From: Anaerolineae bacterium
GTDB lineage: Bacteria; Chloroflexota; Anaerolineae; 4572-78; J111
NCBI GenBank assembly: GCA_023382535.1
Contig: JAHDWA010000010.1
Span: 124,001-188,000 of the forward strand
Reading direction: 5' to 3'
DNA length: 64,000 bases
Below the pieces are notes generated by a model. The model had not been told where the DNA came from. It was given only the letters and a program-made list of their open reading frames with translations, and ran no database searches. Positions 41,603 to 58,329 of this stretch are shown piece after piece; within the stretch, counting starts at the first letter, position 1; each line of letters opens with the position of its first letter. Made by a program: the position numbers and the translations under genes.

Positions 41603-41926
41603 TCAGTCCAGGTGGAACACTTCCTCCAGTTCAATCATGCTCTCGTCGGCGTGAGCGCCGCCCAGACCCTCAAAGTAGGGGGCCATAAACTCCTGCCATT
41701 TCATATTGATCTCCTCCCGGGCCATCCCTGCCAGCGCCGCCTGGAAACTGTCCGGTGTTTCAAAATAGCCAAAGAGCAGGCCGTCGGGTCGCATAAACAG
41801 CGAGTAGTTATGCCAGCCGGTTCGCCGCAAAGCGTCGAGCATTTCGGGCCAGACCGCCTCGTGATGCTTTTTGTATTCCTCGATCTTGTCTGCTTTGACC
41901 TTTAGTAAAAATGCGATGCGTTTCAT
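41603..41926 (-). CDS. rhaM: L-rhamnose mutarotase
   Basis: The 107-residue product matches L-rhamnose mutarotase (RhaM/RhaU), which interconverts the alpha and beta anomers of L-rhamnose. Conserved positions are visible: MKRIAFLLKVKADKIEEYKKHHEAVWPEMLDAL with the active-site His near residue 22, NYSLFMRPDGLLFGYFE near residue 45, and W.EFMAPYFE near the end. I start it at the ATG at 41926 with AAGGGGA upstream. It is the last gene of the long reverse cluster that also contains a rhamnosidase and a rhamnose-type transporter, strengthening a rhamnose link. Confidence 0.9.
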   Translation of the reverse strand: MKRIAFLLKVKADKIEEYKKHHEAVWPEMLDALRRTGWHNYSLFMRPDGLLFGYFETPDSFQAALAGMAREEINMKWQEFMAPYFEGLGGAHADESMIELEEVFHLD

Positions 41927-41965
41927 GGTTATCCCCTTATGGTTTTGATTTTCAAAGATTCCCCC

Positions 41966-42000
41966 CACTTGGGCGACCGCAAGGGTCGCCGCTACGGTCA
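41966..42000. repeat. Dispersed palindromic repeat, copy 2 (inverted relative to copy 1)
   Basis: cttgggcgaccgcaagggtcgccgctacg is the reverse complement, at nearly all positions, of the core of the 17875-17948 element. Confidence 0.6.
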
Positions 42001-42023
42001 CCGATTTCGGTTATCAAGATTCA

Positions 42024-42692
42024 TTAGGTGACTATTTTCTCCGTCAGACCAATCAACTCCTTGGTCAACCGCACGGTTGAGCTGGCATCAGGGGCGTACC
42101 CATCAGCGCCGACTACATCGGCGTATTCCTGGGTCACCGGCGCGCCGCCGACCAGAATCTTGACTTTGTCGCGCAGGCCGGCTTCTTTGATGGCCTCGAT
42201 ATTCTTCTTGAACATGGGCATGGTCGTGGTCAAAAAGGCGCTCATGCCGACCGCCTGGGGTTGGTGTTCGATGATCGCCGCCACAAACTTGTCGGGCGGC
42301 ACGTTGACGCCCAGATCAACCACGACAAAGCCGGCCCCTTCGAGCATAATGTTGCACAGATTCTTGCCGATGTCGTGGATGTCACCCTTGACCGTGCCCA
42401 TGACAAAAGTGCCGATCGGCTTGGCCCCGGTTTCGGCGATGAGCGGCTTGAGAATGGCCATTGCCCCCTGCATGGCCCGGGCCGAGATCAGCATTTCCGG
42501 CACAAAATACTCGCCGATTTCAAACAGCCGCCCCACTTCTTCCAGCGCCGGGATCAGGCCATCGAAAAGCAGGGTCAGCGGCTCCATACCGAGAGCCAGA
42601 CCTTCCCGGGTCAGTTCGACCACGGGGGCGACTTCGCCGTTTAAGGTGTGTTCGTATAAACCGTCTAAAATTTCTTCCTGGCGACTCATCAT
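42024..42692 (-). CDS. Corrinoid (cobalamin-binding) methyl carrier protein, copy 1
   Basis: A 222-residue protein of the MtaC/MtbC/MttC type. The N-terminal helical cap (MSRQEEILDGLYEHTLNGEVAPVVELTREGL) precedes a Rossmann-like B12 domain with GTVKGDIHDIGKNL near residue 103 (the DxHxxG histidine ligates cobalt) and VVDLGVNVPPDKFV, SAFLTTTMPMF, ILVGGAPVTQEYADVVGADGYA. Such proteins carry a methyl group on Co(III) between two methyltransferases. It lies ten bases from the start side of the UroD-family gene 42703-44037, suggesting a dedicated pair. AAAGGAGAAATG precedes the start. Confidence 0.93.
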   Translation of the reverse strand: MMSRQEEILDGLYEHTLNGEVAPVVELTREGLALGMEPLTLLFDGLIPALEEVGRLFEIGEYFVPEMLISARAMQGAMAILKPLIAETGAKPIGTFVMGTVKGDIHDIGKNLCNIMLEGAGFVVVDLGVNVPPDKFVAAIIEHQPQAVGMSAFLTTTMPMFKKNIEAIKEAGLRDKVKILVGGAPVTQEYADVVGADGYAPDASSTVRLTKELIGLTEKIVT

Positions 42693-42702
42693 TTCTCCTT
42701 TA

Positions 42703-44037
42703 CTAATTACTCTCTTGCAAAGCTTTTAAGGGTTTGGGCCAGTAATTAACTTTGGTCAGATGCTCGGCCAGGGCAGCGGGGTCTTCCGGGCCGGCCCCAA
42801 TGGGGTAGACGCCAAATTCGTAGGCGGCGTCAGCGGCGGCCAGGATGTTTTGCGGTGGCACGTCGCCCAGGATGTTGTGAATGGAAGCAAAGACATAACC
42901 GCCGCCGGGCGCAAAGATTTTGATGCGGCGGCGCACATCTTCGCGGACCTGCTCCGGCGTGCCGAAGGGTAAAATGCTGTGAGTGTCCACGCCGCCGCCC
43001 CAAAACGTGATATTCTTGCCAAAGCGGCGTTTCAACTCCATGCCGTCCATGTCGGCGGCATCGGTTTGAACGGTGTTGAAACAATCCATGCCGGCATCAA
43101 TTAACTCGGGCAGCAGGGTCATAACCGCCCCATCAGTGTGATAAAAAACCGCGGCCTGGCTGTTCTCGTGGACGGCCTGGAAAATCGCCTTGTGCCCAGG
43201 CAGAACAAATTCGCGGTAGATGTCCAGCTTCATCATCGGGCCGCGTTGGTGGCCGATGTCGTCGGCAAACATAAAGACATCAATGTATTCGCCGACGGTG
43301 CTCAAATAACGCTTAATGCCGGTGACCAGTTCATGGCTTAACCGCTCAAAAAAGTGATGGGCCAGCTTGGGCTCGGCCAGCATGTGCATATAAATAGTAT
43401 CCCAGCCGATGATGCCCTGGGCGTTTTCCAGCACCGTGCCAAAATAGTCGGCGACGACGGCTTTGTCGGTAGTTTCATGCAGACGCCTGGCAAACTCTCG
43501 CGCCCAGGCCAGTTCCTCATCCGATACCCGGATTCTGGCGATAAAGTTGCCGTCATAGGTATCAAACCAGTTGTCAATCTCCTGCGTGGTCGTCGCCTCA
43601 TGCAGCGGGTGATGGCGCAGCGAGAAGCCGTGCGTGCCCTCGCCCGGCGCTTCGGCAATTTTGACGTCGTGCTCGATCCATTCAAAGTCGCCGGAAGCGT
43701 TGCGGGCCGGATTGAAGCCGGCCGGAACCAGGAACTGCGTCCCATCCACAAAGCTCCACGGTTTGAACTCGACGTTGGGCAGGCCCAATGACATACGATA
43801 GCGCGGCAGGGTGACCGTATCGGTGTGCAGACGCTCGGCGATGGCCGGTTCAATTTCAGGAACCTGGATCCAGGTATGAAAGACCCGCGCCATGCCGCCG
43901 GTCAGCTCCAGATGGCGTTTGAGATTGCCGTAAGCAATCAGGTTGATGCCCGTCACCCCCGTGCCGCCGATGTCAATCGGCACCCGGTCGGCTTCCTCAT
44001 GGCGGATGGCCGCCCAAATTCGTTCGCGTGAGTTCAT
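42703..44037 (-). CDS. UroD-family protein, methyltransferase-like, copy 2
   Basis: A 444-residue UroD-superfamily protein, starting at the ATG at 44037 after GAGGAGTGG. It begins MNSRERIWAAIRHEEADRVPIDIGG, as methyltransferase-type members do. Near residue 315 it has VFYHTDGAVM where MtaA-type enzymes hold zinc with His-x-Cys; here the pattern is His-Thr-Asp. FWGGGVDTHSILPFGTPEQV near residue 365 is conserved across the copies in this window. It pairs with the downstream corrinoid protein. A plausible role is demethylating a substrate onto cobalt; the substrate is unproven. Confidence 0.9.
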   Translation of the reverse strand: MNSRERIWAAIRHEEADRVPIDIGGTGVTGINLIAYGNLKRHLELTGGMARVFHTWIQVPEIEPAIAERLHTDTVTLPRYRMSLGLPNVEFKPWSFVDGTQFLVPAGFNPARNASGDFEWIEHDVKIAEAPGEGTHGFSLRHHPLHEATTTQEIDNWFDTYDGNFIARIRVSDEELAWAREFARRLHETTDKAVVADYFGTVLENAQGIIGWDTIYMHMLAEPKLAHHFFERLSHELVTGIKRYLSTVGEYIDVFMFADDIGHQRGPMMKLDIYREFVLPGHKAIFQAVHENSQAAVFYHTDGAVMTLLPELIDAGMDCFNTVQTDAADMDGMELKRRFGKNITFWGGGVDTHSILPFGTPEQVREDVRRRIKIFAPGGGYVFASIHNILGDVPPQNILAAADAAYEFGVYPIGAGPEDPAALAEHLTKVNYWPKPLKALQESN

Positions 44038-44116: not shown

Positions 44117-44998
44117 TCAGGTAAAAGACCAGTATTGGCCGCGTTCGGCCACCCGGACAACCTGGGAAAATTCCGGGAAGGTTTCGTCAAATCTAGCCTT
44201 AAGCTGGGCATCGGTCAGCATGCCCCCCGGATCTTCCCAGCCGCTGTAGTGAACCAGGTAAGCCCCGTAGCGTTCCTGTTCCGGCTGGAACTGCAACTGT
44301 AACTGGGCCAAAAAGCCGGTGGTGATCAAATCCTCGACGCCGCTGTGCCCAATCTCCTCGGCCAGCGAACTCCAGGTGGTGGTCTCCAAAAAGGCCAGGG
44401 AGGGCTGGCACAAGTGTTCGATCTGTTGGAGGGGCAGCGTGGTGGTGTCCCAGCCGATAATAATCTTGTGCCGTCTTTTTAATTCAAACTCGATCAGGTA
44501 AATCACCGCTCCGTCAAAGTGATCTACCGGGATGGGCGTGATCCTGAAAAGACCGACCTGCACGGGCGTTTCGGGCATCAGTGGGTGATGGTGCAGTGTT
44601 TTTCCAGCCGTGTAGCCGTAGCGATGGGTGCTGAACAGGTGCTCCTGGGTCTCGCCGGTGCAAAAGATATGCAGCGGAGGCCGCACCTCCCGGAAATTCT
44701 GGCCCCGGCGCTGGCAGTAAATTTCGGAGAGGATCATCAGCTCGGCATGATGGTCAACATGGCCGTGCGTAATAAAAATGACGAGCGGCTCGTCCCAAAA
44801 ACTATCGGCGCAGCTATCGGCCAGCCCTTCGATGGTCCCCAGCCCGGCATCAAACAAAATATTCTGTTTGACTTGCCCCTCGACCTGATGGCTCAACAGC
44901 CCGGCGACTTGCCCCCCTTTGGACTGGCCCAGCCGCCGTTTCTCGATCCAGTAAGCGTAATCTTTGTTGATCTGCCGGTAAATGACCTGATTATTCAC
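44117..44998 (-). CDS. Metallo-beta-lactamase-fold hydrolase
   Basis: A 293-residue MBL-fold protein with the metal site THGHVDHHAE (His78, His80, Asp82, His83) and NILFDAGLGT just before it. Other probable ligands are PIPVDHFDGAVIYLIE near residue 158 and KIIIGWDTTTLP near residue 185. The GTG start overlaps the GH78 stop codon by four bases (GTGA), so it is translated with the rhamnosidase. It might hydrolyse a lactone, ester or sulfate/phosphate released during glycoside breakdown; the exact reaction is not determined by sequence. Confidence 0.85.
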   Translation of the reverse strand: MNNQVIYRQINKDYAYWIEKRRLGQSKGGQVAGLLSHQVEGQVKQNILFDAGLGTIEGLADSCADSFWDEPLVIFITHGHVDHHAELMILSEIYCQRRGQNFREVRPPLHIFCTGETQEHLFSTHRYGYTAGKTLHHHPLMPETPVQVGLFRITPIPVDHFDGAVIYLIEFELKRRHKIIIGWDTTTLPLQQIEHLCQPSLAFLETTTWSSLAEEIGHSGVEDLITTGFLAQLQLQFQPEQERYGAYLVHYSGWEDPGGMLTDAQLKARFDETFPEFSQVVRVAERGQYWSFT

Positions 44999-47120
44999 AA
45001 TATTCCGCCCTGTTCACGGGCAATTTCGGCCAGGTGGTAGCGCGGATGGGCCGAGAAGGCGTGACACTGCGAGCCGTCGGGAAAATCCACGTTCCAGTTT
45101 TCCCAGGTGGTAGGATAACCGGCCTGTACCCAGCGCCCCCAACGGAGGCGGATAATCTCGATGACTTGATCAGACCGGCCGCCCTGCCGGAGCGCTTCAA
45201 AAAGGTAGTGGTGCATGAAGGGACTGGCTAAAACCATTTTATCAGGAGCGGGTTCATCGTCGGGGTCCAGCGAACGGGCAGCAATGGCGTCCAGCAACGT
45301 CGCATGCTCATCCGGCGGGCTGGTTTGGGTCAAGACGGCCAGGGCGGCGGCCAGTTGGGAGAAGGTGGAGCGGGCGACATCGTCGTACCAGCGCCCCTGT
45401 TCCCAAAAGGTGGTCCGAATGGCCGCTTGCAGCGCGATGGTGCGAGCTTGCCACATCGCTGCCTCGTCGGTGGCCAGGTTGAGAGTGTCGGCTAATTGGC
45501 TGGCCCGTTGTAAGGCCAAAACGTAGTGCAGGTTATAAACAGCGCTGGGTTCGGTGCGGGCCAGGGGCGCCCAATCCAAAAAGAGACGCCGTCCCGGCTG
45601 GCTCAGGAGCAGGCCGTTCGGGTTAAGGTCTTGCTGGAAGCGATCCAGCATTTTGACCAGCGTGGGCCACATCTGGCCGATAAATTCATTGTCGCCGGTC
45701 AATTTTTGGTAAAGCTGCAATAGTTCAACCCACATAAAGTTGTAATCAACAATCGTGTAGGCATGCACTTCGCCGGGCAGGACGCTGGGCAAGACGCCAT
45801 CGGGATAAGCGCCTTGAGCCGCCATCTCGATCACTTGCCGCAGCGGGCGGACATCATTGCTCAGAGCGGCCATGATCAAGCTCTGGGGCAGGGCATCGCC
45901 GACCCACTGCGAGCTTTCCCGCCAGGTGCTGTCTACAAAGCCATCTTGCAGGCAGGCGTGAAAGGTGGTTTCGCACATGGTAATGATGCCGGCCAGCAGC
46001 GGGTCCTGAGGGTTCAAGGGACGGGTAATCTCCAAAGGATACTCGGCGACGCGGGCGTGGAAGCGCACTCGAAAATCAGGGCCGGTCGGTCCGACGAGTT
46101 GAAACAACAGGTAGCGACCGCCGCGCAAGGCAAACGTTTCGGCTTCCTGGCTGCCAGGGCGCAGCCGAAAACGGTCGGTCAGGCGGACCCGGCAGTAGGT
46201 TTCGGGCTCGGAGAGGACGAGCTGGCCGTCTCGAATCTTCTCGGCGTAGCTAACGGCGAGCTGTTCCTGCCCGCCGGCCCCTTCAATTTCGACCCAGCCC
46301 TGACCGGCGAAATCCCGTCCCAGGTCAAACAGCCAGTAGAAAGACTCGCCTGAGCTCAGGCCGGCTCTGAACCAGCCGCTGTCCTGAACCGGATCTGCTT
46401 GAGGAGCCGCCGCGAACCAACCCTCGCGTAAAGCCAGGTGGGGGTCAGGAGAGGCGGGGGAGGTAGGGAGATGGCGGGTTTCGAGCAGGGTCAGGGTCGC
46501 TTCACGCTCGACGAGAAGAGGCAGGGAACGGAGGCGCAGGTTGGTCCAGGGATAGCCGCCCACCGGCGCGACCAGGCGGGCCGCAGCCCACATAGCATCA
46601 TCGTAGAGGCCATGCGGGTCGGTCCAATTGTCGGCCAGGTTCAGGTCGCGGTCTTCCACGCCGCTGCCGTAAATCGAAACACGCGGGACGAGCGTGGCAA
46701 ACGAGGGGTCGCGCCGGGTAAGCCAGTTGGTATGAGTCGCCAGGACGCTCTGGCCGTCGCAAACCAGATGGGCCAGCAGGCCGGCCACCCCCCGGTGAAC
46801 GTAGGCAAAATGGGAGTAACCCGGCTGGTACACCTGCACGGCCAGGGTGTTGAAACCGGCTTGCAGATAGGGAGTCACGTCGAGGCGATCCACGCTTTGG
46901 GCCTGAGGATAGCTGCGAGCGGGGCCGTGGGCCACAAATTGGCCGTTGACCCACAATTTGTAACGGCTGTCGGCGGTAATAAACAGTTCGGCCTGGCCGG
47001 GCGGCCGCTCCAGGTGCCAGTGGGCCGGGGAGCGGAAGCAAAGATAAGTCTCGTGCAAGTCAAAGGGGTGGGCCGAACCGATCCAAACCGCGCTTTCAGG
47101 AAATTCCAGAGGCGGTTGAG

Positions 47121-47124
<4 letters not shown>
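44995..47124 (-). CDS. Alpha-L-rhamnosidase-like glycoside hydrolase (GH78-like)
   Basis: A 709-residue protein without signal peptide, hence cytoplasmic. The N-terminal 180 residues are beta-sandwich-like (AELFITADSRYKLWVNGQFVAHGPAR). The C-terminal half is an (alpha/alpha)6 barrel with FVDSTWRESSQWVGDALPQSLIM near residue 400, corresponding to the acidic catalytic region of GH78 (normally ...RDE..GW.GDA). A concluding helical and beta part follows. It is shorter than typical secreted GH78 enzymes (about 900-1000). GTG start overlaps the UroD stop. Together with the mutarotase and ABC transporter it would release L-rhamnose or a related 6-deoxyhexose from an imported oligoglycoside. Confidence 0.82.
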
Positions 47125-48101
<977 letters not shown>

Positions 48102-48110: not shown

Positions 48111-48206
48111 TTCAGGTTGCAAGGTGACAGGTCGCAGGGTAGCAGGTAGACTGCGGCTATGACCTGCAACCTGTGACTCTGCGACTCTGCTACCTGCTAC
48201 TCTGCA
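48111..48206. repeat. Heptad-repeat inverted element F
   Basis: The left arm has aggttgc, aaggtga, caggtcg, cagggta, gcaggta; the right arm has gacctgc, aacctgt, gactctg, cgactct, gctacct, gctactc. The ends (gttgca...gtagcaggtag and ctacctgctac...tgcaac) are complementary. The stop codon of the DUF4037 gene (48197-48199) lies within it. Confidence 0.75.
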
Positions 48207-49246
48207 ACTTCCAAATTTAGCAGCTTATCCCATGCGGCCAGGTCCAGCCCGGCGACGTAGCCGCTGTGGAACTGCTCCAGATAAATCTGGTCCCAAACCG
48301 GCACCAGCGGGATTAAATCAGCCGGCAGCCCCTGGAGAATCTGGGCGTAGGCGTGCTCCAGCAGGCGGTAGCCGGAGGTCGGCGAGACGGCGAATTTGGG
48401 ATGGGGCGCAATCAGGCCATCGGCGACCATCGTCGCATCCAGAACATCGGATAGCTGATGCAGCAGGTCCAGTTTGCGTTCCCAGGGAGTGGAGAGGTGA
48501 ACCGCTTCGGATACAATGGGGTAAAGCGGAGCGGCCAGGCGGGGGAGTCGCTCAAAGTAGGCCAGCAGCCACTTATCGTAGGGGAAATACTGTTTATCCA
48601 GCAGAAAGGCCAGTTGCACGCCCAGGCGAATGGACCGGGCAAAAGCGATGGTGGCGAATAGTTCATTGTGGCGAAGGAGGGCGCGCTTGACGGCGTAAAC
48701 GCCCATGCCGGAAAAGTAACGACACCAGTGGGCGATCCGCCGCAGCCACACCGGCTCTGGGTAGTAGGCGTTAAATTTTTGGCGGATCTCGCTGAAACGC
48801 TCGGAGGGATCGTGCCAGACCTCGCCGCCGATGAGATGCTGCACTTCCTCTTCCGGCACATTGAGCCACTCGGCATAAGTTTCGGGCGCGTGGTCCAGGC
48901 CAATGGTTCGCCGCAGAAAGGCTTCCAGGCTGCCCATGGCTAGCCCGATGCCGGTATACCCTTCGCGCAAGGGGTGTCCCTGGTAGGTGGCGGGCAGGTT
49001 AGCGCCCACTACCTGGATAATTTCGTCGCACCGTTCCTGGCAAATCTCCTCAGGGACCAGGGCATTAATGCGAAGCCCCCAGTGGTGATCGCTGGAGTAT
49101 TCGTCGTCCAGTCTCAAGACTTCGGAGCCGTAACCAAAGACACCAAAAGCGGTTTGGGCAGTTTCAGCCGGAAACTCGCGCTCCAGGATGGGTTTGACGA
49201 TTTCGTTGAAGAACTCACGACTCACATCAATAATTGACTCGGTCAC
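48197..49246 (-). CDS. DUF4037 protein (nucleotidyltransferase-like fold)
   Basis: A 349-residue protein with GTG start at 49246 (AGGGGGAC upstream). The N-terminal half has FGYGSEVLRLDDEYSSDHHWGLRI near residue 37, the DUF4037 hallmark that resembles a nucleotidyltransferase GS...D.D core, followed by long helical repeats rich in aromatic residues. Function is unassigned. It sits between two UroD-family genes in the sugar/corrinoid cluster. The C-terminus LNLEVAE ends inside a heptad repeat, like LivM (KVAE), which suggests that the repeat shaped the end of the coding sequence. Confidence 0.85.
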   Translation of the reverse strand: MTESIIDVSREFFNEIVKPILEREFPAETAQTAFGVFGYGSEVLRLDDEYSSDHHWGLRINALVPEEICQERCDEIIQVVGANLPATYQGHPLREGYTGIGLAMGSLEAFLRRTIGLDHAPETYAEWLNVPEEEVQHLIGGEVWHDPSERFSEIRQKFNAYYPEPVWLRRIAHWCRYFSGMGVYAVKRALLRHNELFATIAFARSIRLGVQLAFLLDKQYFPYDKWLLAYFERLPRLAAPLYPIVSEAVHLSTPWERKLDLLHQLSDVLDATMVADGLIAPHPKFAVSPTSGYRLLEHAYAQILQGLPADLIPLVPVWDQIYLEQFHSGYVAGLDLAAWDKLLNLEVAE

Positions 49247-49288
49247 AATAAGTCCCCCTATCTTAAGGTTTTTGATTCGCCTATCAGG

Positions 49289-49320
49289 TGACTGGCACTT
49301 CAAAGTGAAAGTGCCAGTCA
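49289..49320. repeat. Perfect 11-base inverted repeat upstream of DUF4037 gene
   Basis: Arms tgactggcact (49289-49299) and agtgccagtca (49310-49320) surround a ten-base centre. It lies between two reverse genes and may be a terminator or processing site. Confidence 0.6.
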
Positions 49321-49334
49321 TCTGAGCAGTACTT

Positions 49335-50621
49335 TTAGATTTTGCCTCGGTGGTCAATCAGATTATTCAGTTTGTTCCGGTAATACTTAAACTCTTCCCA
49401 CGGCACCTCGGGCGGAATCAGGTGGTCGCCGAAGGGGATATAGCCGCCTGATTGCAATAAGAAGGCCACGTCTTCCAGAAACTCGTCAATCCGCTTGGGT
49501 CCCAAAGTAATATCACTTTTGGGGATGCCGCCCATCATTTGAAGCCGGGGATAGTTTTTGCGGGCTGTCACCACATCCATGCCGGCGCTGACTTCCATCG
49601 GATACAGCCCGGTGACTCCGGCTTCAAGGAACAGGGGAATCAGCCGGGCGCAGTTGCCGTCGGTATCCACCAGGATGATGTTCACGCCCTTGCTCTTGAG
49701 GAAGCCGGTAATTTGCTTGTAGTAGGGGGTCATGAACTCTTTGAATGTGGCCGGCGAAACCATCGAGTCCTTGGTGGCGGAGATGTCTTCCCAGATATGG
49801 GCCACATCAACCTCAACCTGGGCAAAAACTTCCTCCCAGATGGCGATCCACAGATTCGTCAGGTGCTGCAAGATGTCGTGGAGCAAGTCGGGCTGGTCAT
49901 AGTAATAGTAGAACAGATTCTTGTAGCCCAACAGGTGAACCAGCGTGCCGAAGAAACCGCAGGGATAACCGCCCACCGCCAGCGGGTAGTCCCGATTTCT
50001 GTACTCGTCCAGCAGTTCCGGCCAATGGGCCGGGAAGCGGGCGGAAATATTGTCCAGCCGCATCCGCTCATTCTTAATTTCAAGCCAGGTGTCCCAATCC
50101 TTGATCGGCCAGGACATCGAAATCGGAATGACCCCTTCGGCTTTCTGAAAGCGGCGGGTGATGCCGTCAATATCCACGTAATTGACAAACTTCTCGTTTT
50201 CATCGAGGATGATTGGCTCATATTTGGGGTACAAAAGCTGCTCGACATGTACCAGGGCCGTACTTTTATCAAAACCGAAGTAATCGGCCACGTCCAGGTC
50301 CAGCGGAAAACCCTGGCTGGGCCAGTAGAGGGCGCCCCCCCAGATGCCGATCCCGTCCGGCAAGGTGATCTTTCGCTGCCGCTCGCCGTAGGTTTTTTCA
50401 AACAGGTTTTTATCCTTGCGCCACTCGTGCGACCAGGCTGTCGTATAGAGCGATGAAGACATCGTCGAAATCTTGGTAGCAATGGCCGGGTAATTTTTCT
50501 CAGGCAGCCCCTCTTTGTACCAGCGCTTGATAGTCCCGCCCCAGTAACCAAATTCCCACTTGGGAGCGCTGACGGTGGGGTTAAAATTCATTGTTTCCAG
50601 AAACCGCTCGCGCGTGTTCAT
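49335..50621 (-). CDS. UroD-family protein, methyltransferase-like, copy 4
   Basis: A 428-residue UroD-superfamily protein starting at the ATG at 50621 (GGAG seven bases upstream). It begins MNTRERFLETMNFNPTVSAPKWEFGYWGG, typical of a divergent subgroup. In the zinc position it has ILVDTDGNCARLIPLFLEAG, so even the histidine kept in the other copies is replaced by Asp. PRLQMMGGIPKSDITLGPKRIDEFLEDV near residue 350 resembles the GG-(I/V)D element of relatives. It is likely to act on a different substrate from the other copies, or to have a non-catalytic role. Confidence 0.87.
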   Translation of the reverse strand: MNTRERFLETMNFNPTVSAPKWEFGYWGGTIKRWYKEGLPEKNYPAIATKISTMSSSLYTTAWSHEWRKDKNLFEKTYGERQRKITLPDGIGIWGGALYWPSQGFPLDLDVADYFGFDKSTALVHVEQLLYPKYEPIILDENEKFVNYVDIDGITRRFQKAEGVIPISMSWPIKDWDTWLEIKNERMRLDNISARFPAHWPELLDEYRNRDYPLAVGGYPCGFFGTLVHLLGYKNLFYYYYDQPDLLHDILQHLTNLWIAIWEEVFAQVEVDVAHIWEDISATKDSMVSPATFKEFMTPYYKQITGFLKSKGVNIILVDTDGNCARLIPLFLEAGVTGLYPMEVSAGMDVVTARKNYPRLQMMGGIPKSDITLGPKRIDEFLEDVAFLLQSGGYIPFGDHLIPPEVPWEEFKYYRNKLNNLIDHRGKI

Positions 50622-50664
50622 AGGTGATCTCCATTCAAGAAATGGTCCATAATTGCTCACCACC

Positions 50665-50792
50665 TTAGCTGGGATTGAAATCCCAGGCTAAAAGCTGAAG
50701 TCGGCTCAAAGCCGACTCAAAAAAGTGATTTTAAGCGGAGTTAGTGCGCTTTAGCATACTTTAGTTATTAGCCCTGAGCTTCAGCTCGGGGC
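50665..50792. repeat. Three short hairpins in the gap between UroD-family and corrinoid genes
   Basis: Stems: tgggatt/aatccca (50670-50685), agtcggct/agccgact with loop caa (50699-50717), and gccctgagc/gctcggggc with loop ttca (50771-50792, one G-T pair). All are clean palindromes of the type seen as dispersed repeats. They could separate transcription units. Confidence 0.6.
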
Positions 50793-50823
50793 GAACGCGG
50801 GAGACACGTTACAATGGCTCTAT

Positions 50824-51459
50824 TTAAGCCGCTCCCACCAACGCTTTAGCCACCCTGGCGGCGCTGCCTGCGTCGGGGGCAAATCCATCCGCGCCGACGC
50901 TGGCGGCATAAGCCTCGGTCACCGGCGCGCCGCCGATGATCACTTTGACCTGGTTACGGACCCCTGCCTCGGTTAGCGCGCTGAGAGTGGTGCTGATGGC
51001 GGCCATCGTGGTCGTCAGCAAGGCCGACATGCCTATCAGGTCAGGTTTTTGCTCCTGGACCACCGCCACGAACTGCTCCGGGGACACATCCGTACCCAGA
51101 TCAATCACCTCAAAACCGGCTCCTTCTAACATCATGGCCACCAGATTCTTGCCGATGTCGTGTAAATCGCCGGCCACCGTACCGACCACCACTTTCCCCA
51201 ACGATTTGACATTCCCCTCCTGCAAATGGGGCTTGAGGAGATTGACGCCGGTCTGCATCGCTCGGGCAGCGATGAGCATTTCGGGGACAAATTTCTCGCC
51301 CATTTCAAACAAACGACCCACTTCGTCCATTGCCGGGATACAGGCTTCATTCAGAATTTGATCGGCGGGAAGGCCCGCCTCTAACGCCGCCTGGACAGCA
51401 GTGGCGGCATTTTTGGCGTTTCCCGAGAGAATAGCTGCGTAAACAGCTTCAAGACTCAT
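50824..51459 (-). CDS. Corrinoid (cobalamin-binding) methyl carrier protein, copy 2
   Basis: A 211-residue MtaC-like protein. GTVAGDLHDIGKNLVAMMLEGAGFEVIDLG near residue 94 supplies the cobalt-ligating His; SALLTTTMAAI and IIGGAPVTEAYAASVGADGFAPDAGSA complete the B12 fold. The N-terminus (ILSGNAKNAATAVQAALEAGLPADQIL) is the helical cap. It is clearly paralogous to the protein at 42024. It lies next to UroD-family copy 5 (27 bases) and within reach of copy 4. GGGAG precedes the ATG. Confidence 0.93.
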   Translation of the reverse strand: MSLEAVYAAILSGNAKNAATAVQAALEAGLPADQILNEACIPAMDEVGRLFEMGEKFVPEMLIAARAMQTGVNLLKPHLQEGNVKSLGKVVVGTVAGDLHDIGKNLVAMMLEGAGFEVIDLGTDVSPEQFVAVVQEQKPDLIGMSALLTTTMAAISTTLSALTEAGVRNQVKVIIGGAPVTEAYAASVGADGFAPDAGSAARVAKALVGAA

Positions 51460-51486
51460 AGATGGTACTCCCTTTCAACTTAAAGA

Positions 51487-52587
51487 TTAAGCATAAACGC
51501 CGTACTTCTTAACGGCGTTAATAAAAGTCTCGACGTTCTCCATAGATGTGTCCACCTGGATGATGTGGGCCGGAGAGACCATGTAGCCGCCGCTCCGCCC
51601 CAGTACCTCAATTTTGGCCTTGACGTCGGCCTCGATCTCGGCGGGTGTGCCGAAAGGCAGCAGTCTCTGCTGGTCAATGGCGCCCCAGAAAGAAAGTTTA
51701 TCGCCAAACTTGCTCTTGAGGTCTTCGGGATCGTGGCCCGGCACATTTGGCTGAACCGGGTTAAAAACTTCCAGGCCGACTTCAATCCACTCGCCCAGGA
51801 TCGGCGCGACCGCCCCATCGCAGTGCTGCATAATCATCACGTTGGGATTGACCGCCTTGAGCGCGGCGTAAATCTCCCGGTAGCGTTCTTTGAAATACTG
51901 GCGCCACATGGCCGGCGAGATGAGCATGCCGTTCTGCGCCCCAAAATCATCGCCGGACCAGACGCCGTCCACCCCCATCGAGACCAGTCTCTTGCCGACA
52001 GCCAGGGCAAAGTTTTTGGTCTTTTCGATGAGCACCTCGATATACGGCTCCTCTGTGGCCAGATCCATCAGCAGCTTCTGCAAGCCGACCAACTGCTGCA
52101 TCATATCGAACATGGTCAGTTCCATATCGCCGACGATAAAGTAATCGTTCTTATACTTCTCGATGTACACAGCGGCGTCGTCAAAGCGGCCTTCGGCCAG
52201 AGGGTCAGGAAACTCGAAATCTTCGACTTCTTGCGACTCACTCACGTTGGCCAGGGGATGGGTGACCACATCCATGTAGACCGGTCCCTGGCGCATCTTC
52301 ATCTTGAACTCGTTGGTGATGTAGCCTTTCTCATCCCGGGGATGCTCGTAGCCCCGGGGCAGGCTGCCGCCGACGATGACACAATCACTGCCCATCGCCA
52401 CCCGCAAATCGTTGGCCGAGATGCGGTAGGTCACATCTTCGTAATAAGAGGTGGTATAGTGGACCGGGAGGCCGTACTTTTGACCAAACTTGTCGAGTAG
52501 GCCGCGTGACAGGTCAAACTGAAGCGGGACGCGGTCGGGGAGACCCTGCCGGGTCAAGGCGAGACGGACACGTTCTTTGGAATTCAT
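51487..52587 (-). CDS. UroD-family protein, methyltransferase-like, copy 5
   Basis: A 366-residue UroD-superfamily protein (ATG at 52587 after AGGAAAGGAG). It begins MNSKERVRLALTRQGLPDRVPLQFDLSR. SGDDFGAQNGMLISPAMWRQYFKERY lies near residue 215, IMQHCDGAVAPILGEWIEVG near residue 255 (His-Cys-Asp, not His-x-Cys), FWGAIDQQRLLPFGTPAEIEADV near residue 300, and SGGYMVSPAHIIQ near the end. It is directly upstream of the corrinoid protein 50824-51459, making a probable methyltransferase/carrier pair. Confidence 0.9.
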   Translation of the reverse strand: MNSKERVRLALTRQGLPDRVPLQFDLSRGLLDKFGQKYGLPVHYTTSYYEDVTYRISANDLRVAMGSDCVIVGGSLPRGYEHPRDEKGYITNEFKMKMRQGPVYMDVVTHPLANVSESQEVEDFEFPDPLAEGRFDDAAVYIEKYKNDYFIVGDMELTMFDMMQQLVGLQKLLMDLATEEPYIEVLIEKTKNFALAVGKRLVSMGVDGVWSGDDFGAQNGMLISPAMWRQYFKERYREIYAALKAVNPNVMIMQHCDGAVAPILGEWIEVGLEVFNPVQPNVPGHDPEDLKSKFGDKLSFWGAIDQQRLLPFGTPAEIEADVKAKIEVLGRSGGYMVSPAHIIQVDTSMENVETFINAVKKYGVYA

Positions 52588-52604
52588 AACCTACTCCTTT
52601 CCTG

Positions 52605-53456
52605 TTAGAGTTTAGATGTTGCTTGTAATACCTTGGTTAAGATCAACTGCTGGCCGGCCAGACTGGGATGCAGCCCGTCGGCCAGGTAGAGGCTTGGATC
52701 GGGATTGAGGCTAAAAGCATTAACCAGGTCAACCAACGGCAGGTTGTGCCGCCCGGTCAGGTCGCGCACAGCATCAGCGCATGCCTGAACATCGGCGTTG
52801 TCCCAGGTCATGCGCACGGCGGCAAAATCGGGGCTGGTATTGGCCACACTTTCGACCACCGGCGCCGGAGTCAGCAAGACAGGTCGAGCCGGAGTATATT
52901 TCAAAAAGCCCTCGACAATGCCGGTCAGATTCGCCGTATATTCAGCCAGGGAAACCAGGGTTTTGGTCGGCGGCCCCCCGAACTTTTTGCAATCGTTGAC
53001 CCCAACCATGATAAAAACCCAATCGGGCTGGTGGGCCAAAAACTGGGTAAAGGTGTTTTCCAGGATGTGAGTCGAAGTGTAACCGGATTGGGCCACATTA
53101 ATCACCTGAATCCCATCATCTGGACGGCACTGGGCCAACATCGCTTCGAGCAGCCAGACATAACCGTAGCGATAGATCGTGATCGAGTCGCCAACAGCCA
53201 TGACCTTTCCCCCTGCCCGGATAGGCCATCGTTCGACGACCTGGGCCAGTTCCGGCTCTGCGAGCAGCGCCTGGGCGATATTGTTGATCTCCGTCTTAAC
53301 CTGCCCCACATAGGCCAAAAACTGCGCTTCGGTGATGTGGCACATCGCCGCTGCCGCCGCGGGCGATACATCCAGCCCCAATGCCGCCGGCACCCAGTGC
53401 AGGTTAAAGTCAATCAAAAAGGCGATTTCTGGGGCAAGTTTAACGTTGGTTGACAT
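52605..53456 (-). CDS. SGNH/GDSL-family hydrolase
   Basis: A 283-residue hydrolase starting at the ATG at 53456 (GGGAG upstream). The SGNH fold is indicated by MAVGDSITIYRYGYVW near residue 105 (Ser nucleophile in GDSIT), IMVGVNDCKKFGGPPTKT near residue 180 (the GxND block), and LYLADGLHPSLAGQQLI near residue 265 (catalytic Asp and His in DGLHP). It has no signal peptide. It would remove acyl (for example acetyl) esters, consistent with de-esterifying an imported sugar. It lies between the ABC permease and UroD copy 5. Confidence 0.88.
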   Translation of the reverse strand: MSTNVKLAPEIAFLIDFNLHWVPAALGLDVSPAAAAAMCHITEAQFLAYVGQVKTEINNIAQALLAEPELAQVVERWPIRAGGKVMAVGDSITIYRYGYVWLLEAMLAQCRPDDGIQVINVAQSGYTSTHILENTFTQFLAHQPDWVFIMVGVNDCKKFGGPPTKTLVSLAEYTANLTGIVEGFLKYTPARPVLLTPAPVVESVANTSPDFAAVRMTWDNADVQACADAVRDLTGRHNLPLVDLVNAFSLNPDPSLYLADGLHPSLAGQQLILTKVLQATSKL

Positions 53457-53475
53457 TCCGAACTCCCACAAAAAC

Positions 53476-53545
53476 GGTTATCAGTTATTCTCACTGATTA
53501 CTGATTACTTTTTCACTGACCACTGCTCTCTGCTTCCTGCTTGCT
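53476..53545. repeat. Heptad-repeat element G overlapping a gene end
   Basis: Contiguous 7-mers ggttatc, agttatt, ctcactg, attactg, attactt, tttcact, gaccact, gctctct, gcttcct, gcttgct. The permease stop codon (53513-53515) and its last codons lie inside. Confidence 0.7.
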
Positions 53546-54544
53546 TTTCGCAACCCGGCCGATACTGCCCAGCCGGAAGCGGTCCAGCCCCACCGCCAGC
53601 AGCAGCACGAGCCCCTGCGATATTTGCTGGTAGTAGGAAGAGATACTGAGCAGAGTCATGCCGTTGTTGAGCGTCCCTAAAATGAGCACGCCGACCAGAG
53701 TACCCAGGAGATGGCCCTTGCCGCCGGCCAGACTGGTGCCGCCCAGCACTACCGCCGCAATGACGCTTAACTCCACCCCAAAGGCGGCCTGCGGTGCACC
53801 GGCGGCCAGTTGCGAGGTCAGAAAAACGCCCGCGACCCCTGCGCTGAGGCCCGATAACGTGTAGGCAATCAGTTGGTAGCGTTTGACCGGCAGCGCCGCC
53901 AGGTGGCTGGCCTCGGCGTTGCCGCCGATGGCGTACATGGCTCGCCCGTAGGTGGTGTAGCGCATCACAATAAACGCGCCGATGAACAGAATGGCGAACG
54001 CCACCACCGGCACCGGCACGCCGCCAATTCTATCCCGCCCCAGCCAGCCGAAGGCTTCATCTAAGGCCGGTTCGCTCAGCCCGCCCGAAAAGACAAAGGC
54101 CAGGCCGCGCACCACCGAGAGCATGCCCAGGGTGGTGATGAGCGGATTAATCCCGATGCGGGTCACAATCAGGCCGTTGAGTAATCCCACGACCAAGCCG
54201 GTGGCTAACCCTGCTACTACAGCTCCCCAAATGCCCAGCGCATACTGGCTGTGCGAGATGACCACACCCACCAGGGCCACCGTCGAGCCAACCGACAAAT
54301 CCAGGCCGCCGCCAACCATTAACATGGTTGTAAAGATAGCAATCATACCGATGGTCGAACTGGCCAGCAGCAGGTTGAGAAAGTTACGGGTACTCAGGAA
54401 AAAAGGCGACAGCACCGACATCACCACCACGATGATGAGGTACATCGCCACCAGCCCAAACCCCTCCTGGAGAGCGGGGTTTTGGAGTATTTTCTGTAAT
54501 CCATCCGGCTTTGAAACGGGCAGCGTTTCGGTTCGGTTGCTCAT
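53513..54544 (-). CDS. Sugar ABC transporter permease (RbsC family), copy 2
   Basis: A 343-residue inner-membrane permease of the ribose/rhamnose type with about eight to ten hydrophobic helices. GGGLDLSVGSTVALVGVVISH near residue 78 and LLNGLIVTRIGINPLITTLGMLSVVRGLAFV near residue 120 are family signatures. The ATG overlaps the ATPase stop codon (ATGA). Two different permeases flanking one ATPase, as here, match RhaP/RhaQ-type rhamnose importers. The last few codons (ESSGQ) lie within heptad repeats. Confidence 0.93.
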   Translation of the reverse strand: MSNRTETLPVSKPDGLQKILQNPALQEGFGLVAMYLIIVVVMSVLSPFFLSTRNFLNLLLASSTIGMIAIFTTMLMVGGGLDLSVGSTVALVGVVISHSQYALGIWGAVVAGLATGLVVGLLNGLIVTRIGINPLITTLGMLSVVRGLAFVFSGGLSEPALDEAFGWLGRDRIGGVPVPVVAFAILFIGAFIVMRYTTYGRAMYAIGGNAEASHLAALPVKRYQLIAYTLSGLSAGVAGVFLTSQLAAGAPQAAFGVELSVIAAVVLGGTSLAGGKGHLLGTLVGVLILGTLNNGMTLLSISSYYQQISQGLVLLLAVGLDRFRLGSIGRVAKSKQEAESSGQ

Positions 54545-56070
54545 AGCGTGCCTCCGGCCGCGGCATGGAGGATGATTTCTTCTGTCGCTTCGCGCTGGCT
54601 AAATTCGCCGGTCAGTTGGCCCTTATACATGGTCAAAATGCGGTGACTCACCGACAAGACTTCCTGGATGTCGGACGAAACCATCAGGATAGCCAGCCCT
54701 TGTCCGGCCAGCGCCTCCAACTGGTCATAAATATCGGAGCGCGCCCCCACATCCACCCCCCAGGTTGGCTCGTTCAGCAGCAGCACCTTGACCTTCGCCT
54801 CCAGCCAGCGGCCCAGCACTACCTTTTGCTGGTTGCCGCCGCTCAAAAAGCGGGTTTCCACCTCCATCCCCCCGGCCATGCGAATGCCCAGGCGGTCAAT
54901 CCAGTTTTGGGCATGGCGGCGCTCCAGACTTTGTTGGAAGAAGCTAAAGCGGGACAGGGGGGACCAGTTCGAAAGGGTCAGATTTTGGCGTACGTTCATG
55001 CCCAGCACCAGGCCGTTCACCTTGCGGTCGGTCGGGACAAAGCCGATGCCGGCCTGCCGGGCGTCGCGTGGGGAAGTAATGGTAACGGGCTGGCCGCTGA
55101 CCAAAATCACGCCGCTGTCGGCCGGTTCTGCCCCAAAGATAGAGCGGGTCAGGGTGGCGTGTCCGGCTCCCAGCAAGCCAAAAATGCCCACGATTTCACC
55201 GGTGCGGATGCTTAAATTAATATCGTGATAGGCTCCGGCTTTGGTCAAGCCCGTCACTGCTAAAACCGCCTGCCCCTCCTGGCGCTCGACTTGGGCTTCG
55301 GCGCGAATTCCGGCCCGCGACTCAACCACCTCGCGGCCCACCATCATCCGCACCAGGTCACGATGAGTCACCTCGGCAATCGGGCGGGTGCCGACGTGCA
55401 GGCCGTCGCGCAAAACCGTTACCCGGTCGGCGATTTGAAAAATCTCATCCAGCCGGTGGGAGATGTAGATAATCGCTACCCCTTGCTTTTGCAGGGATTT
55501 GATGATGCTGAACAGCAGTTTAACTTCGTGGGGGGTTAGCGCGGCAGTCGGCTCGTCCATCACAATGATTTTGGCCTGGGCTGACAGCGCCTTGACAATC
55601 TCCACAATCTCCCGGTCCACCACGCTCAGGCTGCGCATCAGGGCATTCGGGTCAATTTCGATGTCGAGCATACCCAGATATTGGTGGGCCAATTCCTGGG
55701 CTTTGTTCCAGTCAACCAGATATTTGCCCAGAACACCGCTTTGGCGCGGCAGATGCCCCAGCAGCAGATTCTCCATCACCGACAGCTCCGGCGCGTAGTG
55801 CAGTTCCTGGTAAATCATGCGAATCCCCAGCGCTTCGGCGTCGCTGGGTTCGTGAAGCTGCACCAATTGATCGTTCAGGTAGATTGAACCGCTGTCTTTT
55901 TGGTAATCGCCGTTGAGAATTTTGATGAGGGTAGACTTGCCCGCCCCGTTCTCGCCGACCAGGGCCAGCACTTCGCCGGCAAACAGGTCAACCGAAACCT
56001 TGTCCAGCACTTTCACCCCGTAAAAGCTCTTGGTGATGTTTTCCATTCTCAGGAAGGGCTGCCTGTCCAT
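54541..56070 (-). CDS. Sugar ABC transporter ATP-binding protein (RbsA/MglA/RhaT family)
   Basis: A 509-residue protein with two fused nucleotide-binding domains. The first has Walker A ALVGENGAGKSTLIKILNG (about residue 35) and IIVMDEPTAALTPHEV. The second, degenerate at its Walker A (GIFGLLGAGHATLTR), carries LSGGNQQKVVLGRWLEAKVKVLLLNEPTWGVDVGARSDIY near residue 405. Such proteins energise import of pentoses or deoxyhexoses. The ATG at 56070 overlaps the upstream permease stop by one base (TGATG). Usually one ATPase chain works with two permease subunits, matching the neighbours. Confidence 0.95.
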   Translation of the reverse strand: MDRQPFLRMENITKSFYGVKVLDKVSVDLFAGEVLALVGENGAGKSTLIKILNGDYQKDSGSIYLNDQLVQLHEPSDAEALGIRMIYQELHYAPELSVMENLLLGHLPRQSGVLGKYLVDWNKAQELAHQYLGMLDIEIDPNALMRSLSVVDREIVEIVKALSAQAKIIVMDEPTAALTPHEVKLLFSIIKSLQKQGVAIIYISHRLDEIFQIADRVTVLRDGLHVGTRPIAEVTHRDLVRMMVGREVVESRAGIRAEAQVERQEGQAVLAVTGLTKAGAYHDINLSIRTGEIVGIFGLLGAGHATLTRSIFGAEPADSGVILVSGQPVTITSPRDARQAGIGFVPTDRKVNGLVLGMNVRQNLTLSNWSPLSRFSFFQQSLERRHAQNWIDRLGIRMAGGMEVETRFLSGGNQQKVVLGRWLEAKVKVLLLNEPTWGVDVGARSDIYDQLEALAGQGLAILMVSSDIQEVLSVSHRILTMYKGQLTGEFSQREATEEIILHAAAGGTL

Positions 56071-57059
56071 CAAGACCTCCTCAGGCGCAGGCGCAGTTGG
56101 TCAAACCCAACCGCCAGCAGCAGCACCAGGCCGCGCGCCACTTCCTGGTAATAGGAGGATACGTTGGTCAGGATGAGGCCGTTGTCCAACGTTCGCAGGA
56201 TAAAGACGCCAATCAGCGTACCGATGAGACTCCCTTTGCCGCCGGCCAGGCTGGTTCCGCCCAAAATCACGGCGGCGATGACCGTAAATTCCAGGCCCGT
56301 CGCCGCCTGGGGTGTCCCCGCCGCCAGTTGCGAGGCCAGGACCATCCCACCCAGCGCCGCCAGAAAGCCGCACAGGGTGAACACAATCAATTGATAGCGG
56401 TTGACCGGAATCCCGGCCAAGCGGCTGGCCGCGGGATTACCGCCGATGGCGTACAGGTCACGGCCAAACGGGGTTTTAGCCAGCACAAAAATGAAGACGG
56501 CGTATAAAACCAGCATCAAAATCAGCGAAAAAGGTACGCCGCCCAGATCGCCGCGTCCCAGAAATTGGAACTGGGGTTGGCTGAGCTGGTTCATCTGGCC
56601 ACCGGTGAGTACAAAGGCCAGGCCGCGAATAATCGAGAACATGCCCAGGGTGGTGATGAGCGGGTTAATTTTTAGCCGGGTCACCACCAGGCCGTTCAAG
56701 GCGCCGACCACCGCGCCGCTCAAGAGGCCGATGGCTACACAGGCCCAGATCGGTAAAATCTGGTTGTCCCACAAGAGACTGGTCACTACTCCGGCCAGAG
56801 CTGCCACCGAGCCGACAGAAATATCCACCCCCCCGGCAATTAAGAGGATGGTTTCGCCTATAGCCACAATTCCAACCACCGCCAGGGTCTGCCCGATGTT
56901 GACAAAGTTTTGCACGCTCAGAAAGTGGGGGGTTAGCAGGGCAAAAATCAGGCACATCACCACAAATACGGTCAGCAGGCTCAGGCCGGTATTCAAACGG
57001 AGCCGGGAAAACACCGTCGAGGCAGGCCCGGAGACGGCTGATGGGGTTGACTGAGCCAT
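56070..57059 (-). CDS. Sugar ABC transporter permease (RbsC family), copy 1
   Basis: A 329-residue permease with the same signatures as copy 2 (GGVDISVGSVAALAGVVTSLL, ALNGLVVTRLKINPLITTLGMFSIIRGLAFVL, LGGTSLAGGKGSLIGTLIGVFILRTLDNGL). TAGGAGAAAGCG precedes the ATG. It is the first permease after the binding-protein gene; a heptad-repeat element occupies the 160-base gap. Copies 1 and 2 are clearly related but distinct, so they would form a heterodimeric channel. Confidence 0.93.
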   Translation of the reverse strand: MAQSTPSAVSGPASTVFSRLRLNTGLSLLTVFVVMCLIFALLTPHFLSVQNFVNIGQTLAVVGIVAIGETILLIAGGVDISVGSVAALAGVVTSLLWDNQILPIWACVAIGLLSGAVVGALNGLVVTRLKINPLITTLGMFSIIRGLAFVLTGGQMNQLSQPQFQFLGRGDLGGVPFSLILMLVLYAVFIFVLAKTPFGRDLYAIGGNPAASRLAGIPVNRYQLIVFTLCGFLAALGGMVLASQLAAGTPQAATGLEFTVIAAVILGGTSLAGGKGSLIGTLIGVFILRTLDNGLILTNVSSYYQEVARGLVLLLAVGFDQLRLRLRRS

Positions 57060-57123
57060 CGCTTTCTCCTAAATAGAGGGTGAAGAGACCCTAATGGCTT
57101 TCATCTTCAAAATCGGCAACGAA

Positions 57124-57182
57124 ATTGGAAGATTGGAAGACTGGATAAAAGGTCCAACCTTCCAACCCTCCAGCCTTCCAAA
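57124..57182. repeat. Heptad-repeat inverted element H
   Basis: attggaa, gattgga, agactgg, then aaaagg, then gtccaac, cttccaa, ccctcca, gccttcc. The ggaag/ttcc arms are complementary and form a stem in the RNA between the binding-protein and permease genes, where such stems often stabilise the upstream message. Confidence 0.7.
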
Positions 57183-57219
57183 CATTTTAACCCGGTAGGG
57201 TCTGAAACATTAAAGCTTG

Positions 57220-58329
57220 TTACTTACAGCCTGTGGCGTCAGAATAGAGTTCACACAGGTTATCTTTGGTAATAAAAACGTGGTCTACGTAAATGGAGGG
57301 GGGCAGGGGTCTGCACTCCAGGGCATCGAGCATGGCCGGAATAATCTTGAAACCGTACTTTTCGGGGAAGTAGCCAGTGGCACCCAAATAGATGCTGCCT
57401 TCCTTCATTATTTCCTCCTGGCCGGAGGGGTCAGCGCCCTGGCCAACGACAATCGCCTGGTCTTTGCGATTGGCCGCTTCGAGTGCGGCGATAGTGCCCA
57501 GGGCCGTGCCGTCGTTGATGGTCATGCCGACGATATGCTCGGCGTCGGGGATTTTGGGCAGAGTGTCGCCCACGACCTTGAAGGCTTCATCCTGGGTGTT
57601 TTTGCTGTCAAGGCGGAAAACCATATCGTCGGGAACTTTGGTTTCGAGGTTATCTTGCAGACCTTCCAGCATCCCTTGCATGCGGGCAGCGGGGATCGGC
57701 CCGGATTGGGGCAGTTCCAGCAGGAGGATGGCGTCAACCTGGCCATCCCAATTCTGCTTGGCATACTCCGCCGCTGCTTCACCGGCCAGACGGCCGGCTT
57801 TGTAGTTGTCGGCTCCAAAGAAGGTGGCGCCGGGCATGGGGATGTCAATGGCAATGACCGGCACGTTGGCGGCGCGGAACTTGTCCATGATCACGTTGCC
57901 AAATTTCTCGTCGGTTTGGAACTCAATCACGCCGTTTACGCCCTGGGTCAGGAAGCTGTCGGCGTTGGCCAGGGCGGTCGCGCCGTCCAGTTTGTTGTCG
58001 GCCAGCACCAGCTCGATGTTACCGGCCTCTTCGGCTGCTGCCTCGATGCCCTCGCGGACCAGCTTGGTAAAGACAATGTCTTCGGTCAGGTTAGCAAAGC
58101 CAATTTTGTAGCTGTCTTTCATGGTGGTGCACTCGGCGGCGGCCTCCGCCGGTTTTTCAACTTCAACCGTGACTACCTTTTCAACCTCAACCGTCTCTTT
58201 GACCACGACAGTTTCAACTTTAGTTATGGTTTCAGGAGTTGGGGCTGCGCCGCAGGCGGCAATAGCCATGAGCGCCAGTGCAACCAGGCTGAACAACAGC
58301 GTAACTTTGATAAGTTTAGAGCGATTCAT
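57220..58329 (-). CDS. Sugar ABC transporter substrate-binding lipoprotein (rhamnose-type)
   Basis: A 369-residue exported binding protein. The N-terminus MNRSKLIKVTLLFSLVALALMAIAAC is a lipoprotein signal with lipobox cysteine near residue 26, followed by a Thr/Glu/Val-rich linker (KVETVVVKETVEVEKVVTVEVEK). The mature domain (about 70-365) is a periplasmic-binding-protein-4 type sugar binder: YKIGFANLTEDIVF, VIEFQTDEKFGNVIMDKFRAANVPVIAIDIPMP, TINDGTALGTIAALEAA, VGQGADPSGQEEI. This domain is strikingly similar to the C-terminal half of the divergent regulator. AGGAGGGG precedes the ATG. Confidence 0.95.
   Translation of the reverse strand: MNRSKLIKVTLLFSLVALALMAIAACGAAPTPETITKVETVVVKETVEVEKVVTVEVEKPAEAAAECTTMKDSYKIGFANLTEDIVFTKLVREGIEAAAEEAGNIELVLADNKLDGATALANADSFLTQGVNGVIEFQTDEKFGNVIMDKFRAANVPVIAIDIPMPGATFFGADNYKAGRLAGEAAAEYAKQNWDGQVDAILLLELPQSGPIPAARMQGMLEGLQDNLETKVPDDMVFRLDSKNTQDEAFKVVGDTLPKIPDAEHIVGMTINDGTALGTIAALEAANRKDQAIVVGQGADPSGQEEIMKEGSIYLGATGYFPEKYGFKIIPAMLDALECRPLPPSIYVDHVFITKDNLCELYSDATGCK

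Follow-up and report, generated by a model that had tools for sequence, protein, structure and literature searches.

Four UroD-superfamily and two corrinoid proteins within a rhamnose gene cluster of an Anaerolineae bacterium suggest an undescribed oxygen-free removal of methyl groups from sugars

O-methyl sugars are found in plant and microbial glycans, ordinary catabolism of a sugar can be blocked by such a methyl group, and an oxygen-dependent P450 route exists for 6-O-methyl-galactose. Among corrinoid systems, the closest described include the aryl methyl ether O-demethylases and CdmB, in which a UroD-superfamily methyltransferase, a corrinoid protein, an acceptor enzyme leading to tetrahydrofolate, and an activator operate together, as set out in PMC13222342. 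Here, we analyzed 64,000 nucleotides of an Anaerolineae bacterium (assembly GCA_023382535.1, contig JAHDWA010000010.1, positions 124,001 to 188,000; hereafter the window), which carry on the minus strand, at 41603-58329, a run of 15 genes. In transcription order, these encode a sugar-binding protein (SBP), the permease PermB, an ATPase, the permease PermA, an SGNH hydrolase, UroD_A, the corrinoid protein CorA, UroD_B, a DUF4037 protein, UroD_C, a GH78-like alpha-L-rhamnosidase, a metallo-beta-lactamase-fold (MBL) hydrolase, UroD_D, the corrinoid protein CorB, and the L-rhamnose mutarotase RhaM. All 15 are open reading frames (ORFs) at the coordinates given below and each class has a Pfam match, which bears out the co-directional set that an earlier note, made from the letters alone, had described. 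A corrinoid route for methylated sugars, of which that note knew none, was likewise not found in the open-access literature searched, and the cluster suggests that a so far undescribed, oxygen-free removal of methyl groups from sugars takes place.

Like the OdmB, VdmB, MtvB, MtoB, and CdmB systems, the run pairs UroD-superfamily proteins with a corrinoid protein; unlike the aryl O-demethylases and CdmB, its UroD_A and UroD_D are distant from CdmB and have other active-site residues, and the run is embedded in a rhamnose cluster with acceptor and activator outside it. The UroD superfamily is also shared with MtaA/MtbA (SCMT) and the Mlp clusters, and the HCDG and late His of UroD_A align with the HICG and late Cys of 4ay7, but the Cys positions of MtaA/MtbA are Asp and His in the UroDs of the run. 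As in bacterial L-rhamnose operons, RhaM, GH78, and a CUT2 importer are present, and the orthologous clusters add a rhamnose isomerase, accompanied in some of them by a match to an FGGY kinase; unlike in those operons, the run interleaves four UroDs, DUF4037, and MBL, and no rhamnose isomerase or kinase is found among its 15 genes. The HemE function was rejected for the UroDs of the run, which reach at most 39.4 bits against the NCBIfam hemE cut-off of 302.95. The literature read for the analysis comprised PMC10418091, PMC13222342, PMC11264602, and PMC6918356.

The same 15 genes stand in identical order in the close relative Anaerolineales H5_CFX7 (JABTUW; genome G001), and parts of the cluster recur in further genomes; thus, the arrangement is not a product of chance. 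Close orthologues of the UroDs are linked to rhamnose genes across a survey of 396 genomes of the class, in which single-sequence phmmer references and a single UroD profile served to identify neighboring genes, so that absences are soft, and in which several regions are shortened by contig ends (e.g., L267, L272, L277, and L228). UroD_A is strongly conserved (74-89% to the window protein across the alignment rows, with relatives that include proteins named as Terriglobia and Nitrososphaerales) and yielded 23 matches in 21 of the 396 genomes at E 1e-110. Among 22 UroD_A regions, RhaM was present in 12, a rhamnose isomerase in seven (scores above 400 were counted, and RhaA matches scoring 31-50 in L271 and L273 were dropped, coming from short ORFs that overlap UroD_A), and MTII with MTHFR in one; none of 40 random G001 regions had RhaM, a weak control because that genome has a single RhaM, the cluster's own. 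The clearest locus (L275, G053:C59) holds RhaM, UroD_A, RhaA (1.3e-205), and a corrinoid protein in this order, and this four-gene run constitutes a small, concrete target. A corrinoid protein, a RhaA-like protein, UroD_A, RhaM, and an importer are grouped in G243 (L269), while G087 (L268) groups MTII (the tetrahydrofolate acceptor), MTHFR, UroD_A, RhaM, and an importer.

The association of RhaM with UroD is also above background when approached from RhaM, which is present in 141 of the 396 genomes. Sampling every fourth of the 150 places listed, in order of score, gave 38 RhaM regions, of which nine contained a UroD, compared with 1/40 random G001 regions under the same profile (2/40 by Pfam, the profile having overlooked a URO-D match in region L171 at C1:820092), and a corrinoid protein occurred in three of these nine regions and in none of the 29 without a UroD. 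When places are pooled, which is not a random sample, RhaM and UroD occur together in one locus at 23 places, the window being one of them, and a corrinoid protein lies in or next to the run at seven of them (the window, G001, G002:C37, G296:C496, G243, G053, and G222). The G002:C37 locus combines UroDs and RhaM with three B12-binding_2 matches and RACo.

UroD_D, searched at E 1e-100, was found at 14 places in 11 of the 396 genomes, with at least 64% identity at nine places in six genomes, and these nine orthologue places carry CUT2 importers together with varying sets of GH78, RhaM, rhamnose isomerase, DUF4037, SGNH, and MBL. One layout, seen in part or whole in G106, G212:C204, G002:C171, and G296:C273, comprises importer, SGNH, UroD_B, DUF4037, UroD_C, MBL, UroD_D, RhaM, and UroD_A. 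A second comprises importer, DUF4037, UroD_C, GH78, UroD_D, rhamnose isomerase, and RhaM and was seen in G212:C43 and G296:C496, in G002:C139 with no GH78 found, and in G242 as the middle part on a 5.7-kb contig. The isomerase is RhaA in G106 (1.2e-196) and RhaI-like in L003 (3.8e-154, just under the cut-off). All six genomes with a UroD_D orthologue contain RACo (2-5 matches) and 5-13 B12-binding_2 matches; the comparison genomes for these two families, without a UroD_D orthologue, were 10 and hand-picked among those listed first.

No activator or acceptor was found among the 40 window ORFs scanned with Pfam, which are a part of the window's ORFs, so that their absence from view, as the earlier note had it, stands for the ORFs scanned; the genome of the relative H5_CFX7, however, has such matches elsewhere. 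It contains 25 URO-D, 12 B12-binding_2, four RACo, five Pterin_bind, three MTHFR, and one CdhC match, which places acceptor and activator in the relative's genome though outside the cluster; at least one of the five Pterin_bind proteins is probably FolP, and another URO-D match, at 2.3e-134, is probably its HemE. All 25 URO-D matches of this genome are covered by 17 regions of 20 kb, two of which (L142 and L143) overlap and share the cluster, and the UroD references recovered a UroD in 13 of these regions, all 17 having a Pfam URO-D match. A corrinoid protein was present in 6/17 of them against 0/40 random 20-kb regions (Fisher 0.0003) and a CUT2 permease in 5/17 against 1/40 (Fisher 0.007), with P-values that are rough, given unequal region lengths, kinship among the genomes, and random regions that were all drawn from a single UroD-rich genome. 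The same genome has a separate run of RACo, MTII, a corrinoid protein, and a UroD that matches CdmB at 2.9e-30 and is without the HxD site.

The four UroDs all match the URO-D profile over the Pfam cut-off and comprise UroD_A (51487-52587, 2.9e-24), UroD_B (49335-50621, ORF to 50663, 2.1e-10), UroD_C (47121-48101, ORF to 48122, 1.4e-24), and UroD_D (42703-44037), for which the UroD fold is also predicted. B12-binding_2 and B12-binding matches were obtained for both CorA (50824-51459; MtgC/MtbC-like, 1.2e-58 to PDB 1y80) and CorB (42024-42692; 51% identical to CorA), in keeping with the UroD copies 2-5 and two corrinoid proteins of the earlier note. The letters DLHDIG in CorA and DIHDIG in CorB follow D-x-H-x-x-G, a motif of corrinoid proteins, and for both proteins the top scores are those to glycine betaine and methylamine carriers. 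UroD_A, UroD_C, and UroD_D share a DD-HxD-H pattern, which in UroD_A is kept in 121/121 family rows, and the ED-DxD-H pattern of UroD_B is kept at every position in all 121 family rows or all but one. The zinc site of MtaA/MtbA is formed by His-x-Cys ... Cys; the corresponding residues are HxD...H in UroD_A, UroD_C, and UroD_D and DxD...H in UroD_B, while HxC...C occurs in three other UroDs of G001, and among distant UroD_D relatives the position of the MtaA HxC Cys is Asp in 11/33 rows and Cys in 22/33. Membership in the MtaA group was rejected, given the missing HxC...C site and scores far below the NCBIfam cut-offs, as was membership of UroD_A and UroD_D in the CdmB/aryl O-demethylase group (profile E 0.1 and 0.0052, against 2.9e-30 for the CdmB-like G001 protein); the VIA-align list, with HemE, 4ay7, and MetE and no CdmB row, gives no evidence either way. 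The four UroDs are not recent duplicates, sharing 20-26% identity.

Corrinoid methyl transfer is probably the chemistry of these UroDs, and it is the likeliest one because fusions of UroD relatives to corrinoid domains occur in three genomes. Five such single-chain UroD + B12-binding proteins were found in G296, G002, and G001 (L230:2346-4130, L230:8952-10793, L139:617-2401, L139:5606-7435, and L151:8205-10127), in both domain orders and with HSDG or HCDG in the UroD part, and at G296:C496 corrinoid-UroD fusion proteins adjoin the run. Their UroD domains nest among the window UroDs in a tree whose main split is not strongly supported (90/82), in which several long branches are unsure and the row L085, with DD-HxC-H, is placed on the opposite side.

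The explanation that we prefer, with a confidence slightly above even, is a corrinoid O-demethylation of O-methyl-rhamnose or methylated rhamnosides with transfer of the methyl group to tetrahydrofolate, methylated rhamnose as donor being the simplest joint reading of the sugar genes and the UroDs. The cluster would import a rhamnose-containing glycoside that is processed in the cytoplasm, where GH78 would release rhamnose, SGNH may strip acyl groups, and RhaM would equilibrate the anomers. One or more UroDs would then move the O-methyl group of the O-methylated rhamnose or rhamnoside to the Co(I) of CorA or CorB, possibly dividing the steps among them, and a Pterin_bind methyltransferase would pass it to tetrahydrofolate and on to the methyl branch or carbon monoxide dehydrogenase/acetyl-CoA synthase. 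A RACo protein would keep the cobalt reduced, free rhamnose would enter ordinary rhamnose catabolism, and clusters without a corrinoid protein may be supplied from elsewhere in the genome. 3-O-methyl-rhamnose (acofriose) is reported in PMC6918356 from glycans of liverworts and mosses, namely their arabinogalactan proteins, and bryophyte acofriose is a plausible natural source of the substrate. A broader proposal, which we regard as tentative and somewhat short of an even chance, is that DD-HxD/C-H UroDs form a large undescribed class of anaerobic corrinoid sugar O-demethylases, acting on rhamnose and, where sister clusters have other importers and LacI regulators, on other methylated sugars, and delivering the methyl groups to the Wood-Ljungdahl methyl branch. 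If O-demethylation of this kind takes place, a corrinoid route would let anaerobes use methylated sugars, glycan breakdown in Chloroflexota would be tied to methyl and C1 metabolism, and a function would be gained for part of the large family that databases name "uroporphyrinogen decarboxylase."

Several observations weigh against demethylation of methylated rhamnose. A corrinoid protein lies inside the run at one of the nine UroD_D orthologue places (G001) and in 3/22 UroD_A regions, and with carriers inside the run in G001 alone, CorA and CorB, which the earlier note counted as part of the system, look added in the lineage instead of being a defining part. UroD_B is without the HxD histidine, and the last His is replaced by Asn in two of the five fusion proteins. 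Four of the five UroD_D places at 41-45% identity (L233-L236) had no RhaM, GH78, corrinoid protein, or CUT2 permease found, and an 80-locus UroD_D scan, mostly of 33-41% relatives, gave a corrinoid protein in 18/80, RhaM in 4/80, and a CUT2 permease in 18/80. Linkage of UroD and sugar genes in other genomes, whose absence from relatives the earlier note would have taken as a refutation, therefore holds for the orthologues and mostly fails for distant UroD_D relatives, making the rhamnose link a feature of close orthologues, not of the whole family. Furthermore, 29 of the 38 sampled RhaM regions are without a UroD, so most rhamnose loci there manage without one. The absence of a corrinoid protein from most orthologous clusters also speaks for a different explanation, in which the UroD-fold proteins are metal-dependent sugar isomerases, epimerases, or lyases without methyl transfer and the corrinoid proteins are lineage-specific neighbors; the conserved site is rich in His and Asp, and HemE is an example of this fold outside methyl transfer. 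Set against the fusions of related UroDs to corrinoid domains, we consider this explanation doubtful.

Two further explanations retain corrinoid chemistry and change the donor. One places the methyl group on a methoxylated aglycone, with GH78 trimming a plant rhamnoside (e.g., a methoxyflavonoid) and the UroD and corrinoid proteins demethylating its aromatic part, for which it counts that GH78 cleaves glycosides and seems cytoplasmic and that OdmB/VdmB/MtvB-type corrinoid enzymes of the UroD superfamily act on methoxyarenes (PMC13222342). It is nevertheless unlikely, if a little less doubtful than a metal enzyme, as CdmB is matched by the UroD_A and UroD_D profiles at no better than E 0.1 and 0.0052, respectively, the CdmB-like UroD of G001 sits in its separate RACo-MTII-corrinoid run, and UroD_A and UroD_C/D stand beside rhamnose isomerase in loci where a single GH78 reference found no GH78. 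The other, which we hold to be quite improbable, invokes methyl transfer from an unrelated small donor (an amine, halide, methylthio compound, or methyl ester) whose regulation is shared with rhamnose use. The best scores of the corrinoid proteins with glycine betaine and methylamine carriers, and the SNF sodium symporter and fifth UroD beside the cluster in H5_CFX7, fit such a donor, but the 15 genes include neither an MttB-type enzyme nor another one known to be specific for a donor, and the tie to RhaM and rhamnose isomerase is found again at loci in which an SNF match was not seen.

The remaining genes of the run begin with the importer, which consists of SBP (57220-58329; Peripla_BP_4, 8.1e-35), PermB (56070-57059; BPD_transp_2, 6e-48), an ATP-binding cassette (ABC) ATPase with two ABC_tran stretches in one chain (54541-56073), and PermA (53513-54544; BPD_transp_2, 1.8e-36). 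The label rhamnose-type importer is not supported by the importer's own sequence: it is CUT2-type, its best NCBIfam models are AraG/AraH (L-arabinose; AraH for PermB) and, for SBP, MglB/RbsB, all below cut-off, and these matches to arabinose, ribose, and galactose systems do not point to rhamnose. The SBP N-terminus is lipoprotein-like (...ALMAIAACGA) and a signal peptide is not evident in GH78 (44995-47124; Bac_rhamnosid6H, 2.1e-26, 93.5 bits against a cut-off of 24.5); hence, an imported glycoside is likely cleaved in the cytoplasm. RhaM (41603-41926, ORF to 42001) matches PF05336 at 2.7e-30 (105.1 against 23.4) and the stricter NCBIfam YiiL_rotase at 68.9 bits, under the 99.6 cut-off. SGNH (52605-53471; Lipase_GDSL_2, 9.5e-23) is a possible deacetylase, and MBL (44117-44998) matches Lactamase_B_2 at 1e-15. 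The DUF4037 protein (48197-49246, ORF to 49357; PF13228, 1.3e-26) has a GS...D.D-like stretch in the alignment that suggests a nucleotidyltransferase, and its structure prediction from three sequences was poor (pLDDT 46.1). The several 4-base overlaps of the earlier note are present in four adjacent pairs (permease/ATPase, ATPase/permease, UroD_C/GH78, and GH78/MBL). Five listed starts lie too far upstream and, judged by the lengths of relatives or by where the conserved part has its first Met, are likely near 44037 (UroD_D), 50621 (UroD_B), 48101 (UroD_C), 49246 (DUF4037), and 41926 (RhaM).

Upstream of the run and divergent from the SBP gene, a 561-residue DeoR-type protein on the plus strand (58921-60606; HTH_DeoR, DeoRC, and Peripla_BP_4), likewise present in G001, G002, G106, and G296, is the likely regulator of the cluster. 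Its fusion of a DeoRC sensor and a periplasmic-binding domain is an unusual two-sensor layout, kept beside CUT2 importers in several genomes. Beyond RhaM lie, on the minus strand, an SNF-family sodium symporter (31663-33066; PF00209, 3.9e-49) and UroD_1, copy 1 (30445-31593, DD-HxD-H), which stand about 440 bases past RhaM in H5_CFX7 and may serve another methylated compound. In the window, about 8.4 kb (33200-41584) separate them from RhaM; this stretch was not found at the same place in H5_CFX7 and holds a transposase (39126-40799) and a histidine kinase/response regulator pair (34288-37205). From DUF4037 to PermB (48200-57097), DNA identity to H5_CFX7 is about 94.6-97%, higher than the approximately 87-92% seen over the rest of the aligned DNA, as after recent exchange or under strong constraint.

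Three further loci were observed. In G001, L144/L145 (G001:C5:312000-347999) bring together a corrinoid protein, a UroD, a Peripla_BP_4-type importer, LacI, two zinc-type dehydrogenases, RACo, MTII, and MTHFR, possibly a complete system for another methylated sugar. A 671-residue protein with two Peripla_BP_4 stretches (L003:6739-8754) shares its locus with the rhamnose isomerase. At L136:3763-6030, a single 755-residue ORF reads as a fusion of a LacI regulator, including its sugar-binding domain, to a UroD domain, and its locus also contains RhaM, corrinoid proteins, and RACo.

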